A DNA stretch of 26,767 nt from IMG/VR virus record IMGVR_UViG_3300023109_000113, positions 1-26,767 of that record; one strand, written 5' to 3'. Every line of letters starts with the position of its first letter. The stretch's first letter is position 1. Under the pieces are notes generated by a model. That model was not told the DNA's origin and made no database searches. It was given only the letters and a program-made list of their open reading frames with translations. This DNA is from a virus. Made by a program: the position numbers and the translations under genes. Below, piece after piece: positions 12,302 through 18,928 of this stretch.

Positions 12302-15300
12302 ATGGCTATAAATCTTGACGTACATGGTAACACGCAACCTCTTGAGGCATCGGTTCAGGCTGCCGTAAATAGGATACGTAAAACCCCAATTAAAATTACG
12401 GTTGACGACAAAGGGGCGACTCAACCTTTGGGTAATATGAAGCGTGGAGCTGACGAGTTTAGCAAATCGATGGAAGCAGCTAATGCTCGTATCATAGCTT
12501 TCGGGGCCAGTATGGCTATTATAAATGGAGTATCCGATGCTTTCAAGGGCATGGTTAGGAATGTTGTTGAGGTGGAAAAAGCTCTTGCAGATATCAATGT
12601 GGTTATGGGCTTAAGTGCTGCAAATTTAGATAAATTTTCCGATTCTTTATTTCAAGTTGCGAAAGAAACAGCTGCAAGTTTCGATGTGGCCGCTGCTGCT
12701 GCTACAGAATATGCAAGGCAAGGCCTTAAGGTAGAAGAAACATTAAAAAGAACGAAGGACGCTTTAATTTTAACGAGGTTGACGGGTATGGATTCTGCGG
12801 AAGCAGTAAAATCTCTAACTGCAGCTATGAATACTTATGGTCATCAAATTAAGGATACTACTCAATTGGTTAGTAAGTTTGCAGCGGTAGATGTTAAGTT
12901 TGCTGTTAGTGCAGAGGATTTCGCTGACGCTATCGCTAGAACTGGTGCCGCAGCAAAAGGGGCTGGGGTGGATATAGATGAATTGATAGGATTAGTTACG
13001 GCAGCGCAACAACAAACTGCCAGAGGAGGTAAGGTCATTGGCAACTCATTTAAAACAATTTTTACAAGAATTGGTAGAACCGATACATTGAATCAATTGG
13101 AGAATTTAGGTATTGCAGTTAGGGATGTCGAGGGTAATACTCTCGGAGCAAAAAGAATATTAACTGATCTGGCTAACACTTTTGATAGATTGAGCGAGGC
13201 TCAAAAGGCTCAAATTGCACAAACTGTCGGTGGTGTATTTCAAATCAATATTCTAAAAGCCGTACTTGGTGACGCGGCAAAACAAAATGGTATTCTTGCG
13301 AATGCTACCCAAATATCTGCAAGCGCAACAGATGAAGCTATAGATAAAAATGAACAATTAAGAAACACTATGGCCGCCATGGCCACAGAAACAGGCTTAG
13401 CAATCAAAGAGGTAAGCGCTCAACTTGGTGAAATTGCCATTGCTCCTGGAATAGAGAAAATTTTAAATATAGTTAAGAGCGGGGCCGAGGGCCTATCTTC
13501 CGCACTTGGAGATGGGGAGGGCACCGGAAATCAATTTGCAACAGGATTTTTAAAAGGCTTGGGTAATATTATAACTGGGCCAGGTTTAGTTATGCTCGTT
13601 GCCGTTATAGGAAAGCTATTTTTAAAAGCAGGTCAATACGCGAGAGAAAGCTTGACATCTTTAATAGGAGTTTCTTCTGAGGCGCAAAAGCAAAAAGCTA
13701 TTCAGTCTTCTCTGGTTAATTTATTTAGTCAAAACGCAGCATTAAGTAAGGAAATGTTGCGAACAGATATAAGTCGAACGGAAAAAGAAAGAATAATCCT
13801 TGGTCTTCTTAAGGCGCAAGTTGTTGAGGCTAATATGTTGAACAATATTAGTAAACAGGCTGCCACTACATTATATAAACAGGGTTATGGGGCAAGCTTA
13901 ACTCCTAGAGGTAAAGGTAGGGCTGCGCAAGGGTATATTCCTAATTTCGCTCATCCAGAAAGAGTTGAGGCCGCTAAAGGTGGGTATGCCGCTGGAAGTA
14001 TTCGTAGCATGAATATGCCCGGCGAAGGTTCGGTTATATACAACAGTGCGGAAAAAGTGAAGAATTTCAAGGGTATGAGTCAGCCTGCAATCATGCCGCC
14101 ACAATCCAGTAAAGCTGGAAAAAACTATCAACAAGCATTTGGGAATATACATGGATTCGATCCATATGCTGCGGGAGGATATATACCAAATTACGCTCGT
14201 AAAGATACGTTTGATGCATTTAGGAAAACAAAATCATTTAGAATGCTTGCCGCTTCACCTGGAGGAGCTATGCTCCCTGATAGCACCAAAAAACTAAACC
14301 AAGCCCAACAAGCTAGGGCTGATGAAGCATATAAGTCATTAATGTCTTATGTTGATAAATCTAATGCGAATTTAACACCAAAAGCATTGATTGGCGCCTA
14401 CAGAGGTAGTGTTGTAAAAGAAGATCCAAAAAAATCTTTAGCAGCAATGCTTGTGCCTCCCGAAGGGTATAAAAAACCTTTCGCTAATCATAAAGATCTT
14501 ACGTGGCCTGTGTATGGTTTAAGGCCAGACGCTCAAACAGATCCAAGTTTAAGCGAAATGGTAAAAAAAGATTTCAAAAAAACAGGAAGTGAATATGGAA
14601 ATAAAATAGCTTCCGTACTTAATAAAGGCAGGCAAGAAATCAGTGGTGGTACAATCTGGAGCCGCATGGAAAAAACCGCAGGAGCTATGGGTGCGTGGCA
14701 GGCTGCTGTTGGGGCATTATTTGAAACAGCAGTAGCTACCGCATTAGACTACAAAACAAAAAAAGGAGGGAATGAGCAGGGAGATTTTGATGTTCGAGCA
14801 GGGAATAAAGCAATCCTGTCAAGAGCTTTTGATGGTTTTCCAGTAGACATGCTTTTGGCTGATTTTAAAAACGATAGTGAAAGCTATGGGAATAAAGAAT
14901 CTTTCTATAAAAAAGTTATGAAAGAGAAAAAGTTTGAAAAAATGCAAAATAAAAACAAACTTATTTCCACAAGAAAAGCTTACGGACACATCCCTAACTT
15001 CGCCGATCCATTATCAGATGCAATAGGTCGCGAAAAAGCTGCTGGTGTTCCTGTGTCACAAATTCGCGTGGGATCTCATAGCGCACTCATGGGCAAGGGT
15101 AACCCTCTCGGCCTCGGCGTAACCAATACTCACGATGAACCAAACGGTCTGCGCGATGTGTTTGGTTCCGCTAATGGATTTGTGCCGAATTATGCTGTAC
15201 CCACACTTTCTGCAGGCGATATGGGTTTAAGAATAGATAAAACGCAGCAACAATTAGCCGACCAATATAATAAAGAATTAAAGATAAGGATAGATAGATT

Positions 15301-18300
15301 ACGCAAGGGTAATTATCAGTATAAGGATTTTGAAAGGTCAGTTAAAAAATTAAATGATAGATATAATGTTTCTAGTAATGCTCAATCAACAGTAAATAAA
15401 GAACTACGTAAAGAAATTGGATTGATTCAAAGAAATAATTTAAGCAGGCAGCAAATGTCTACGCAATTCCAAAAGAGCTCCTTAGGTAGAGGTACTGCAA
15501 AAATGGGTAAAATGTTTAGTGGTAATTTTGGAATGATGGCTATGATGGGCGCTCCAATGGCCGCAGGGCTTTTGCAAGGAAGTGGTGCTGGGCAAACAGG
15601 TGCAGGAAGCGCTATGTATTCAGCAGGGGGAGCTTTACAAGGTGCCGCAACTGGAGGCATGATGGCGAGCATGTTAGCTCCAATGTTTGGACCTGCTGCG
15701 CCATTGGTGATTGGTATCGGAGCTTTAGGGGGAGCAATACATGGTATGGCATCTGCAAGCGAGGAGAACACCAAAGCTTTAGAAGAAAACGCCAAAAATA
15801 TGGGTGGGCAGATAGCACAATCTGTTATGTCTAATACAGCACTCACTCAAGCACTTTCGTCCTTAAACCCCGCAGAAACAAAAAGACTTGCGGGATTGAC
15901 TCGAGCAGGCGGAGAAATAAATAAGGCGTATAAAGAAAGAGAAAGATCAATTATTAAAAAATATCAAACGCCTCAAGATATTTTAAATCCAGCAAGTCAA
16001 GTAGGCTCAATGCTTTCATCGTCACCATTAGGCGCTGCGTTATCTGGCTTTATAAACACAAGTTCAAGCGCTGTTACCGGAGAGAAGAAATCAGAAATTG
16101 GGAAGGCTAGAGGAGAAATGGAAAAACAAGCTGCAATCGAAAGAAAAAAAGCATTAATAACGGCATTTAAGTCTATGCCTGCAGGTGAGGAATTCATGGC
16201 CAAAAGTTTAAATATGGTTGATGGTAAGTACGATCTAAAGGAGCGATCTTTTGATAGAGAGGGATACTCAAAGGAACTTGAAAAGTTAGACCCTAAAGAC
16301 AAAGCCGCGCAAGAAGCTCTTAAGCAAGTTTTTGAAGATCAGGTTGTTCAAGCAGAAAGAGCTTCGGTTAATTTAAGTAAAGAGAATAAAGCAATCATAT
16401 TGAGGCTTAACTTGCAAAAAGCAATTATGCTTGCACAAATGCAAGCTAAAGAGGCTCAAATTGATATCAAGGAAAAATATTTTAAGCAATCTAATATGAT
16501 CGAAGCTCAAACTAAAATTTTGGGCGGCCTCATGAGCGAGGAACAGAAAGCTAGATTAAATTATAATAAAAGCCTAATCAAAAACACTGAGACTAGAGAA
16601 TCTGGAGAACAAGCGGCAGAAGATGCCATGCGTTTAGGTATACTTCAGGATATAAAAGGAGCTCAGGGCGGGGGATTGGAACAAGCCTTAAAAAAGGCAT
16701 TATTTAAAGAAACAGATGAAGGTAAATTGAAGGATATAACATTTGAAAATTTGACTAAAGAATTAGATGCAAAAGGCGCAAAAGAATTACTTGCTATACT
16801 AACTGAAATAGGAGAAAAAGATGACAAAGCAAACAAAATTCACGAACAAAGAACTGCAGAATTTAATAATCAAATCTCTATATTAGATAAACAAAAAACA
16901 TTAAATGATAACATTGCTACGGCAGATTATAAAATAAATGATGCTATTGGTCAAAGAAAAGATTTAATGAAAGACGTTAATCGTGAAATGCAAGAATATA
17001 TTCGCGGATTAGATTATGCTGCTCAAAAAAGAGCTATAGAATCAGAAATACAATCTGCTAGATTTAGTGCCGGACCAGTGCGATCTCAGGAGGAAGTATT
17101 TCAGGACATGCAAAGAAAGGTTGGCGAGCGTCAAGAAAGTATTCGAGAGGAATATACAAAAAGCGCGGTTACAGATATGAAAAAATTTGCTGACGAACTT
17201 GGATTAACTGAACAACAAAGATTAGAGGTAGCTGATGATCCAAATAAATTAAAGGGCGCAGCTGTTTCTTTTTATGATAAAGAACAATCTAATTTTAATG
17301 CAAAATATGGTCAAAAAATGAAGATGCTGGAAGAAGAATCGGTCCCGTTGATTGAAAAAATAGGTAAGGGTGAAAAGATAACAGATTCAGAAATGAGGAA
17401 TTTAGAGGAATATAATAAGCTTATAGACCTGCAAAATAACCTTAATAGCGTTAAGGAAGAAACTTTAAAAAAATCCGGCGAAATATCTGGAAAGCTTCAA
17501 GATCAATTAAATATAACAAAACAAAAAATAAATAAAGAAGCAGAACTCCAGGCAATTAAAGAAAAAGAGTATCTGAGAAAAACTGGACCAGGAGCTTTTG
17601 GTGAGGGCATGGCAGACGCATCTCAAGATATGCGTAATGAAATTGAGATGATGGATTATGAACTTGGAAGAAATATTCCAAGAAACTTTGCGAATGGTAT
17701 GGCTACAGCTTTAACTGAGGCTATAAATGGCGCAAAAGATTTAGATGATGCATTAAGAGATGCCGCGATAAATTTCTTGGGCGCGATACAGCAAGCCATG
17801 ATGCAAAAAATGGCAATGCAAGCAGTAACTGCAATGGGATTTTCTCAAGGAGGAAATGTTAGGAAGTATTCTAACGGAGGTAATGTTCCTGCCATGGTCA
17901 CGAATGGAGAATATGTAATGGGTCGCGATGCAGTTAAAAAATATGGTGGCGGATTTATGCATCGCATGAATGCTGGTGGGGAAATTCCTGGATATAGTAA
18001 CGGTGGAGATATTTCCGATAGAAAATATAGGCGTAGTCAAATGTCTGGATACTTTTACAGTGGTCAATCTGGGAGCATAGGATTAAAAGAAGATGAACAA
18101 ACTGTTAGAGGTCTCATCGCTGAAAGAGAAAGAAAAAGGCAGGAAGAAGAAGCTAGAAGGCGCGCCAAGAAAGCTAAAAAACGTCAATTATGGGGTATGC
18201 TTGGTTCAACTGTAGCGATGGGTTTTGTTGGATCTCTATTTAATGGAAACATAAACGCTGGAGGCGGGTTAACCAGCTCTGCTAAATCTGCAGGATACGG

Positions 18301-18928
18301 AGCTAATACCCCTGCAGGAGTAAGTATGGCAACTGATGCAAGCGGTCAAGCATTTAGTCTGCTTCCTGGGGCCGATGCCTCTGGGTATAGTAATGTCGCA
18401 CCTACAAGAAGTTGGAATCCAAGTTCTTGGTTTGCTGATTCGTATGGAACTGCGACGCAAGATCCAGCTTTATCTTATTATTTTAACAACAATCCTCAGT
18501 CATTAGGCGGCAAGATTAATAAGTACGCAACTGGCGGCCACATATCGGGCAAGTCCGGAATCGACCAAATCCCAGCCATGTTGAGCGAGGGGGAATATGT
18601 AATAAAAGCTAGCAGTGCTCGACAAATTGGTAAGCCCACGCTTGACCGAATAAATGCTGGAAAATTTTATGAAGGTGGACAGGTTTCCAAGATGGAGGAG
18701 AGTTCTGAGAGCGGCATGTCTCGAGGTAATACAAATAATATAAATATCTCCATAAATGTAAAAAAGGGTCAATCTCAAAACGAACAAACTACAACCGATA
18801 ATAATTCTGATCCCGCAGCCAAAGACAAGGACGATCAAGATAACTCATTGCTTGCAGAAAAAATTAAGCAGCAAGTTGTTGCGGTGATTGTTGAAGAGCA
18901 AAGACCTGGTGGACTGCTAGATGATTAA
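12302..18928 (+). CDS. Tail tape measure protein with embedded cassettes
   Basis: 2208 residues; sets tail length and is expelled through the tube at infection. Residues about 55-400 match the TP901-type tape measure core: 'ARIIAFGASMAIINGV', 'VEKALADINVVMG', 'ATEYARQGLKVEETLKR', 'GGKVIGNSFKTIFTRIGR', 'NTFDRLSEAQKAQIAQTVGG'. Hydrophobic segments lie at about 422-445 and 1074-1148 (glycine/alanine/methionine-rich). Residues 544-965 hold four G-[YHF]-[IV]-P-N-[FY]-A motifs that separate three cassettes, the second resembling a PD-(D/E)XK nuclease. Residues about 1150-1800 are charged coiled coil. The C-terminus has two copies of a known tape measure motif, 'VPAMVTNGEYV' (about 1862-1872) and 'IPAMLSEGEYV' (about 2090-2100), each followed by a conserved 'N.G' turn, then a disordered acidic tail. 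It follows the chaperone-like pair and ends two bases before the next gene. By the usual 0.15 nm per residue the tail would be roughly 330 nm. Confidence 0.95.
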   Translation: MAINLDVHGNTQPLEASVQAAVNRIRKTPIKITVDDKGATQPLGNMKRGADEFSKSMEAANARIIAFGASMAIINGVSDAFKGMVRNVVEVEKALADINVVMGLSAANLDKFSDSLFQVAKETAASFDVAAAAATEYARQGLKVEETLKRTKDALILTRLTGMDSAEAVKSLTAAMNTYGHQIKDTTQLVSKFAAVDVKFAVSAEDFADAIARTGAAAKGAGVDIDELIGLVTAAQQQTARGGKVIGNSFKTIFTRIGRTDTLNQLENLGIAVRDVEGNTLGAKRILTDLANTFDRLSEAQKAQIAQTVGGVFQINILKAVLGDAAKQNGILANATQISASATDEAIDKNEQLRNTMAAMATETGLAIKEVSAQLGEIAIAPGIEKILNIVKSGAEGLSSALGDGEGTGNQFATGFLKGLGNIITGPGLVMLVAVIGKLFLKAGQYARESLTSLIGVSSEAQKQKAIQSSLVNLFSQNAALSKEMLRTDISRTEKERIILGLLKAQVVEANMLNNISKQAATTLYKQGYGASLTPRGKGRAAQGYIPNFAHPERVEAAKGGYAAGSIRSMNMPGEGSVIYNSAEKVKNFKGMSQPAIMPPQSSKAGKNYQQAFGNIHGFDPYAAGGYIPNYARKDTFDAFRKTKSFRMLAASPGGAMLPDSTKKLNQAQQARADEAYKSLMSYVDKSNANLTPKALIGAYRGSVVKEDPKKSLAAMLVPPEGYKKPFANHKDLTWPVYGLRPDAQTDPSLSEMVKKDFKKTGSEYGNKIASVLNKGRQEISGGTIWSRMEKTAGAMGAWQAAVGALFETAVATALDYKTKKGGNEQGDFDVRAGNKAILSRAFDGFPVDMLLADFKNDSESYGNKESFYKKVMKEKKFEKMQNKNKLISTRKAYGHIPNFADPLSDAIGREKAAGVPVSQIRVGSHSALMGKGNPLGLGVTNTHDEPNGLRDVFGSANGFVPNYAVPTLSAGDMGLRIDKTQQQLADQYNKELKIRIDRLRKGNYQYKDFERSVKKLNDRYNVSSNAQSTVNKELRKEIGLIQRNNLSRQQMSTQFQKSSLGRGTAKMGKMFSGNFGMMAMMGAPMAAGLLQGSGAGQTGAGSAMYSAGGALQGAATGGMMASMLAPMFGPAAPLVIGIGALGGAIHGMASASEENTKALEENAKNMGGQIAQSVMSNTALTQALSSLNPAETKRLAGLTRAGGEINKAYKERERSIIKKYQTPQDILNPASQVGSMLSSSPLGAALSGFINTSSSAVTGEKKSEIGKARGEMEKQAAIERKKALITAFKSMPAGEEFMAKSLNMVDGKYDLKERSFDREGYSKELEKLDPKDKAAQEALKQVFEDQVVQAERASVNLSKENKAIILRLNLQKAIMLAQMQAKEAQIDIKEKYFKQSNMIEAQTKILGGLMSEEQKARLNYNKSLIKNTETRESGEQAAEDAMRLGILQDIKGAQGGGLEQALKKALFKETDEGKLKDITFENLTKELDAKGAKELLAILTEIGEKDDKANKIHEQRTAEFNNQISILDKQKTLNDNIATADYKINDAIGQRKDLMKDVNREMQEYIRGLDYAAQKRAIESEIQSARFSAGPVRSQEEVFQDMQRKVGERQESIREEYTKSAVTDMKKFADELGLTEQQRLEVADDPNKLKGAAVSFYDKEQSNFNAKYGQKMKMLEEESVPLIEKIGKGEKITDSEMRNLEEYNKLIDLQNNLNSVKEETLKKSGEISGKLQDQLNITKQKINKEAELQAIKEKEYLRKTGPGAFGEGMADASQDMRNEIEMMDYELGRNIPRNFANGMATALTEAINGAKDLDDALRDAAINFLGAIQQAMMQKMAMQAVTAMGFSQGGNVRKYSNGGNVPAMVTNGEYVMGRDAVKKYGGGFMHRMNAGGEIPGYSNGGDISDRKYRRSQMSGYFYSGQSGSIGLKEDEQTVRGLIAERERKRQEEEARRRAKKAKKRQLWGMLGSTVAMGFVGSLFNGNINAGGGLTSSAKSAGYGANTPAGVSMATDASGQAFSLLPGADASGYSNVAPTRSWNPSSWFADSYGTATQDPALSYYFNNNPQSLGGKINKYATGGHISGKSGIDQIPAMLSEGEYVIKASSARQIGKPTLDRINAGKFYEGGQVSKMEESSESGMSRGNTNNINISINVKKGQSQNEQTTTDNNSDPAAKDKDDQDNSLLAEKIKQQVVAVIVEEQRPGGLLDD
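13931..15196 (+). other. Cassette region of the tape measure protein bounded by GYIPNFA-type motifs
   Basis: Motif copies lie at residues 544-550 (GYIPNFA), 626-632 (GYIPNYA), 895-901 (GHIPNFA) and 959-965 (GFVPNYA). They bound segments of 75, 262 and 57 residues. The first segment contains 'MPGEGSVIYNSAEKV', the third contains 'REKAAGVPVSQIRVGS' and 'TNTHDEPNGL'. I recall both as mobile-looking modules in tape measure proteins of other large or marine phages. The four motifs are each followed by unrelated sequence, so they look like borders between exchangeable units. Confidence 0.75.
14684..14881 (+). other. Putative PD-(D/E)XK nuclease-like domain inside the tape measure protein
   Basis: Within residues about 795-860, the order of charged residues fits the nuclease core: a helix 'WQAAVGALFETAVATAL' with E808, then 'QGDFDV' with D828 and D830, then about 24 residues later 'LLADFK' with D854 and K856 as the D-x-K pair. 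Strands and helices are spaced roughly as in this superfamily. The match is short and by eye; a structural domain without activity is possible. Confidence 0.42.

Follow-up and report, generated by a model that had tools for sequence, protein, structure and literature searches.

A tape measure protein (TMP) of an uncultured virus was found to contain a domain with a conserved nuclease-like signature, which holds a constant position in the protein and is replaced wholesale at its flanking motifs between near-identical TMPs. TMPs are usually regarded as rulers and channel formers, and the usual extra found in them is a wall-hydrolase domain. In the case studied here, the TMP probably carries an interchangeable nuclease-like effector cassette with a PD-(D/E)XK-type site which is delivered by the virion, where catalysis, delivery and target are the parts that we infer. 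The nuclease-like core is a new protein family, and its carriers are many uncultured, mostly aquatic phages.

The tape measure protein and its motifs

The sequence under study (the window, i.e. the whole stretch of DNA that was analysed) is 26,767 bases long and is a fragment of an uncultured virus. It has an open reading frame (ORF) of 2208 residues, for which PHROG 4211 was the best match among the PHROGs (E 1.8e-54), along with ten more TMP families, and PF10145 was the match in Pfam (E 1.5e-28). On the basis of these N-terminal family profiles and its large size the ORF is assigned as a tape measure protein, which agrees with the first-pass annotation of the window. The protein has four copies of a GxxPN[F/Y]A motif, beginning at residues 544, 626, 895 and 959, and these delimit the following features of the gene.

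12302..18928, + strand: tape measure protein (TMP) gene, 2208 aa (ORF; PHROG and Pfam profiles)
13931..13951, + strand: motif 1, GYIPNFA, aa 544-550
13952..14176, + strand: conserved spacer between motifs 1 and 2, aa 551-625 (23 related unique copies in related TMPs, cluster C0)
14177..14197, + strand: motif 2, GYIPNYA, aa 626-632, left boundary of the cassette (identity drop between swapped pairs)
14198..14983, + strand: exchangeable cassette, aa 633-894 (complete divergence there between near-identical TMPs)
14984..15004, + strand: motif 3, GHIPNFA, aa 895-901, right boundary of the cassette (identity rise between swapped pairs)
15005..15175, + strand: conserved spacer between motifs 3 and 4, aa 902-958 (near-same sequence in locus L185)
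15176..15196, + strand: motif 4, GFVPNYA, aa 959-965

The distance from motif 3 to motif 4 is 63-65 aa in most of the relatives. In almost every close relative the cassette site was seen to be flanked by both spacers (13952-14176 and 15005-15175). Two hydrophobic segments were also observed in the TMP, at aa 425-438 and aa 1128-1144, and the cassette is located between the two. Elsewhere in the window, positions 1-1557 on the minus strand hold a truncated virion-structural or tail-fibre-like ORF with a bactofilin-like match (PF04519, E 4.6e-7).

Conserved residues of the nuclease-like core

The core occupies the C-terminal part of the cassette, and the elements of its signature are given below.

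14684..14941, + strand: nuclease-like core, aa 795-880 (family profile, 115 unique members aligned; 57/57 TMPs)
14711..14725, + strand: G804-x-x-F807-E808 motif (predicted helix, aa 795-814; E808 codon 14723-14725)
14789..14791, + strand: D830, predicted metal ligand (115/115)
14861..14869, + strand: D854-x-K856, the (D/E)xK element (predicted strand; D854 14861-14863, K856 14867-14869)
14912..14914, + strand: K871, fifth conserved position, K or Q (helix next after the D854-x-K856 strand)

The first-pass annotation had proposed E808, D828, D830, D854 and K856 as the residues of a PD-(D/E)XK core lying between two GYIPNFA-type motifs. All five residues are found exactly there, and the segment sits between the second and the third of the four motifs. 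In the alignment of 115 unique cores to the family profile, the same residue is found in all 115 at G804, D830 and K856. Position 808 is occupied by E (110) or D (5) and position 854 only by D (61) or E (54), and F807 is kept as F in 98. Four of the five residues, which had been picked in advance from one sequence, are hence strongly conserved in the homologues, E808, D830, D854 and K856 being invariant or strictly acidic, whereas D828 is poorly kept (D in 24 of 115). The proposed order of E, D and DxK is also retained; the residue at position 871, which had been overlooked, belongs to the signature too (K in 97 and Q in 17, of 114). The active-site order of the PD-(D/E)XK enzymes, E...D...(D/E)xK, often with K/Q on the next helix, is thereby present in the 115 unique members. 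Alternation of D and E at the first position of xxK, as is seen at position 854, is what the name PD-(D/E)XK stands for.

As a profile alignment favours the profile's own columns, the motif was also checked in an alignment-free manner. The gapped motif for the whole signature, which was written from this very family and then scored against the controls, fits 125 of the 129 unique homologous segments; among the controls it fits 2.1% (shuffled segments) and 2.3% (775 windows from elsewhere in the same TMPs). The apparent exceptions to the signature are mostly P-loop and other cassettes that were grouped in by common motif ends; such cassettes, first clustered in via these shared ends, were removed from alignment A1 and from the profile.

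The 115 unique relatives are at a low identity (roughly 20%), and the mean column identity of two family alignments is 12% and 15%. The hypervariability of the cassette would suit a variable surface or decoy, by which the TMP escapes host defences that bind it or matches a host entry protein, with catalysis being irrelevant. The defence nuclease SNIPE recognises TMPs, and changes in the TMP allow escape from it (PMC13190303). A decoy gives no reason, though, for E, D, (D/E)xK and K/Q to be kept while almost all else varies, and we consider this explanation highly improbable.

Fold and family comparison

The structure of the cassette was predicted with AlphaFold2 using 76 family members. The model has a pLDDT of 80 overall and of >90 across most of aa 715-815 and 835-875. 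In this model E808 and K871 are both helical, K871 being on the helix that comes after the D854-x-K856 strand, and D830 is at a short strand. Three strands, at about 714-718, 727-730 and 733-740, precede the E808 helix and the strands following it are few and short; the predicted order thus differs from the textbook alpha-beta-beta-beta-alpha-beta arrangement. A fold search with this confident model (Foldseek against PDB and BFVD; VIA-align 2) gave no nuclease and nothing convincing. The model of a differently ordered member, from locus L065, was of low confidence (pLDDT 64.5), and its fold search, which also gave no nuclease, thus says little. Absence of a nuclease from these fold-search lists does not count against a nuclease. 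For cassettes of the L065/L058 type, a circular permutation fits by eye, in which an N-terminal 'AAMLVP' strand would replace the strand after the last helix.

At the profile level, the family had no match in Pfam, PHROGs, NCBIfam or PADLOC, the A1 profile found lectin noise only in PDB, and the Shedu profile comparison gave no useful match. The hhalign comparison with Mrr_cat (PF04471, PD-(D/E)XK superfamily; Flavobacteriaceae sequences) gave an E value of 0.25, which is not significant. The best local alignment between the two is nevertheless in register (FE/FE, D/D and (D/E)xK/(E/Q)xK), so that Mrr_cat resembles the cassette in having FE on the first helix, then D and then (E/Q)xK. Its score was 11.5 against 7.8 +/- 1.4 for column shuffles, and it was matched by 2 of 100 shuffles, none of which had its length. 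Apart from the profile score, the cassette differs from Mrr_cat in the strand order of the predicted model and in having no Pfam match. Since the Mrr_cat comparison is not significant yet in register, and no fold match was obtained, the membership of the core in the PD-(D/E)XK superfamily is likely but unproven. The PD-(D/E)XK nuclease of the first-pass annotation has stood up in its signature, but neither the fold search nor the profile search against PD-(D/E)XK families returned a significant counterpart, and the strand order of the confident core model is noncanonical.

The same results bear on the possibility that a different enzyme fold underlies the core and only its charged signature is similar, as could be the case for some other metal-dependent phosphoesterase. 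Such an enzyme would be consistent with the lack of a fold or profile match to known nucleases and with the noncanonical strand order in the model. The order and identity of GxxFE, D, [DE]xK and [KQ], together with the in-register Mrr alignment, point away from it and make another fold unlikely.

Exchange of the cassette between near-identical proteins

Of 651 TMP pairs whose 500 N-terminal residues are at least 80% identical, and which are not independent of one another, 600 have cassettes with less than 50% identity. At the DNA level, L014 and L044 are 99.7% identical over aa 2-630 and 97% identical from aa 883, and between those flanks there is no DNA similarity, the cassette proteins being 29% identical. 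Five swap pairs, from eight loci meeting strict flank criteria, show a drop in identity per 30 nt, 0.94/0.84 to 0.28, where motif 2 ends, and a recovery, 0.44 to 0.88, where motif 3 begins. Alleles are exchanged at the GxxPN[F/Y]A motifs, which may also serve as putative linkers or processing sites. The first-pass annotation had given the extent of the nuclease-like segment as 14609-14941 (aa 770-880); the core lies inside it, but the exchanged unit is wider (aa 633-894). Within alleles, dN/dS is 0.07-0.21, which corresponds to purifying selection and indicates that the alleles are functional proteins. The alleles turn over rapidly, which points to an arms race over the target, an inhibitor or regulation.

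In polymorphic toxins an exchangeable enzymatic module is carried on a constant carrier next to a cognate immunity gene. The first of these features is present here in the form of a putative enzyme, with the swaps bounded by motifs 2 and 3. The second was not found in the L014/L044 neighbourhood: no co-varying immunity gene was detected near the TMP within 7.8 kb on its upstream and 9.3 kb on its downstream side, and this whole region aligns between the two loci except for the cassette and stretches inside the TMP. One such stretch without DNA similarity, the second in this pair, was noticed at about aa 1478-1890 of the TMP.

Sharp replacement between near-identical flanks, a nuclease signature and an in-frame cassette in a conserved gene would be expected as well from a selfish homing-like cassette, which would cut TMP alleles without its own cassette and be copied in when these are repaired from their conserved flanks, the swap being its function and any effect on the host secondary. 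Homing endonuclease genes are reported to interrupt phage TMP genes as introns, different ones being found at the same locus in one isolate, and like the cassette they are nuclease sequences in the TMP gene that vary between close relatives (PMC10448857). These genes, however, are intron-borne and spliced out, whereas the cassette stays in the protein; the ORF is open throughout, the cassette is translated as part of the protein and an intron or intein is unnecessary. Further, homing elements show both occupied and empty sites, and empty sites were found in 0 of 57 TMPs. Non-nuclease cassettes (GNAT, P-loop) lying between the same type of motif are also not predicted by homing, and we regard such an origin as quite unlikely.

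Other cargo in motif-bounded cassettes

Five TMPs are without the core (L156, L064, L159, L168 and L082). In L156 a staphylococcal-nuclease domain is present at the equivalent site (aa 438-645; PF00565, E 1.9e-9; PDB thermonucleases), and it directly follows the same conserved stretch that precedes the cassette of the window. That an unrelated nuclease type can take this site provides the best indirect evidence that the core works as a nuclease. A cognate of the spacer between motifs 1 and 2 lies upstream of the unrelated cassettes in L159 and L168 too, as it does in L156. The L064 protein has a different domain at aa 653-1048, bearing E, D and ExK elements, and aa 1391-1622 of L159 form an ADP-ribosyltransferase (ART)-like segment (YRG ... 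SFSTS) which was recognised by eye and had no profile match.

GNAT acetyltransferase cassettes were found between motifs in the motif-bearing ORFs of L111 (aa 6-214, above the Pfam cut-off) and in L106 (aa 81-239, below it). A motif-bounded Walker A (P-loop) cassette of 155-160 aa, with APAGAGKST and similar sequences, is placed directly before the nuclease-like cassette in L077 (aa 627-796), L087 (aa 627-797), L143, L160, L173 and L076; its match in Pfam is AAA_30 with an E value of 0.0033 only. The presence of non-homologous enzyme cassettes at the same site, including the staphylococcal-type nuclease, favours a delivered-enzyme role.

More cassettes with E ... D ... ExK-like elements were observed in L060 (aa 872-1088), L170 (aa 138-363), L113 (aa 361-563) and L144 (aa 27-235). 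These four and the L064 cassette have no significant similarity to the family of the window, and they are possibly independent nuclease types. HAD-phosphatase-like cassettes were noted by eye in L095 (aa 1134-1317) and L091 (aa 1048-1412), with DLDETL and DWDGT sequences and no profile match. Small cassettes follow the nuclease-like one in some loci, being about 86-93 aa in L005, L012, L026 and L030 and 120 aa in L016 and L044; no convincing profile match was obtained for these post-core cassettes (clusters C4 and C15).

It is about an even call whether the TMPs of a large group of mostly aquatic phages serve as carriers with several motif-delimited slots, in which enzymes delivered with the DNA can be exchanged, i.e. 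as a polymorphic effector platform on the tail ruler. Its cargo would then comprise several nuclease-like types and the GNAT, P-loop, HAD-like and ART-like domains.

The nuclease may also be thought to act on the phage's own DNA, for instance in trimming or resolving the ends at entry or packaging. The TMP is thought to touch DNA at entry, and the universal presence of the core in this TMP clade suggests a needed function. Alleles with 25% identity, however, are swapped between phages whose neighbour genes are about 95% identical, and unrelated enzymes take the same site; neither is expected of a housekeeping nuclease, which makes a role on own DNA very unlikely.

Proposed role and comparison with known systems

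For a virion-delivered effector, the following course of events is proposed. In the tail tube the TMP would be stored with its cassette unfolded or in a loose fold; the cassette may be too large to be folded inside the tube. On leaving the tail, the TMP would be driven into the cell before the DNA or together with it, and the cassette would fold on arrival. In the early phase of infection the folded cassette would then cleave nucleic acid, the most likely target being DNA of the host or of a competitor; alternatively, it may counter a DNA-based defence. If the cassette is active and enters with the DNA, each infecting particle brings a DNA-cutting enzyme into the cell before gene expression. 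This would represent a modular delivery slot and a new protein family of injected counter-host weapons, and would offer a testable answer to the role of the variable middle of long TMPs.

The closest precedent is the TMP of Thermus phage P23-45, which has a working RNA polymerase at its N-terminal end and whose full-length protein is present in virions (PMC10770324). It is similar to the present case in having a nucleic-acid enzyme inside the TMP polypeptide, that of P23-45 being active and thought to act at DNA entry, and is thus a direct precedent for a TMP carrying an entry-stage enzyme (PMC10770324). In P23-45 there is one fixed N-terminal RNA polymerase, whereas here a small exchangeable nuclease-like cassette is internal and relatives have other enzyme types in its place. 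Polyvalent proteins and MuF-fusion effectors are multi-domain proteins injected with the DNA of the parasite, with ADP-ribosyltransferases, GNATs and nucleases among their domains (PMC5512222). Like the TMP cargo, they combine many disparate enzymatic domains on injected proteins, but they belong to head/portal and conjugative contexts, and the term tape measure is never used in PMC5512222. Sle1-type effectors of contractile injection systems are also TMP-related carriers, being coiled-coil proteins with exchangeable functional domains (PMC13277306); in their case the domains are C-terminal, the systems are bacterial injection systems, one of the effectors forms a toxin-antitoxin pair, and a nuclease cassette within the TMP of a phage is not involved. 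The literature covered, with subscription papers and preprints outside its scope, gave no description of a swappable cassette of this kind in phage TMPs.

Distribution among tape measure proteins and phages

The N-terminal part of the TMP alone (aa 41-450) retrieved 57 viral loci as a query, and a DNA-level motif search gave at least 80 loci. With hmmsearch run with filters off, the core was present in 57/57 TMPs retrieved without the motif, so that the cassette described by the first-pass annotation occurs at the same place in related TMPs, and in 113 of 118 TMPs overall, the loci having been selected through the TMP or the motif. In the filtered search all the 138 core matches are in motif-bearing ORFs, the loci again being picked by TMP or motif; 21 of these 138 ORFs are without the TMP N-terminus and have their start at the border of the retrieved DNA or of the contig. 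When eight large phage records were searched with the profile, the reported matches were confined to one long frame per record, and this frame is of TMP size wherever the TMP is known.

A tblastn search of the cassette against 50,697 phage records of an isolate collection gave no match. Among 299 Flavobacteriaceae genomes there was one match, which is the MAG contig that had been used as a search centre. TMP-like ORFs with motif and core were further observed on bacterial MAG contigs in L183, L185 and L188; these contigs are binned with Flavobacteriaceae and Verrucomicrobiales MAGs, which may be a lead to the host or may reflect mis-binned phage.
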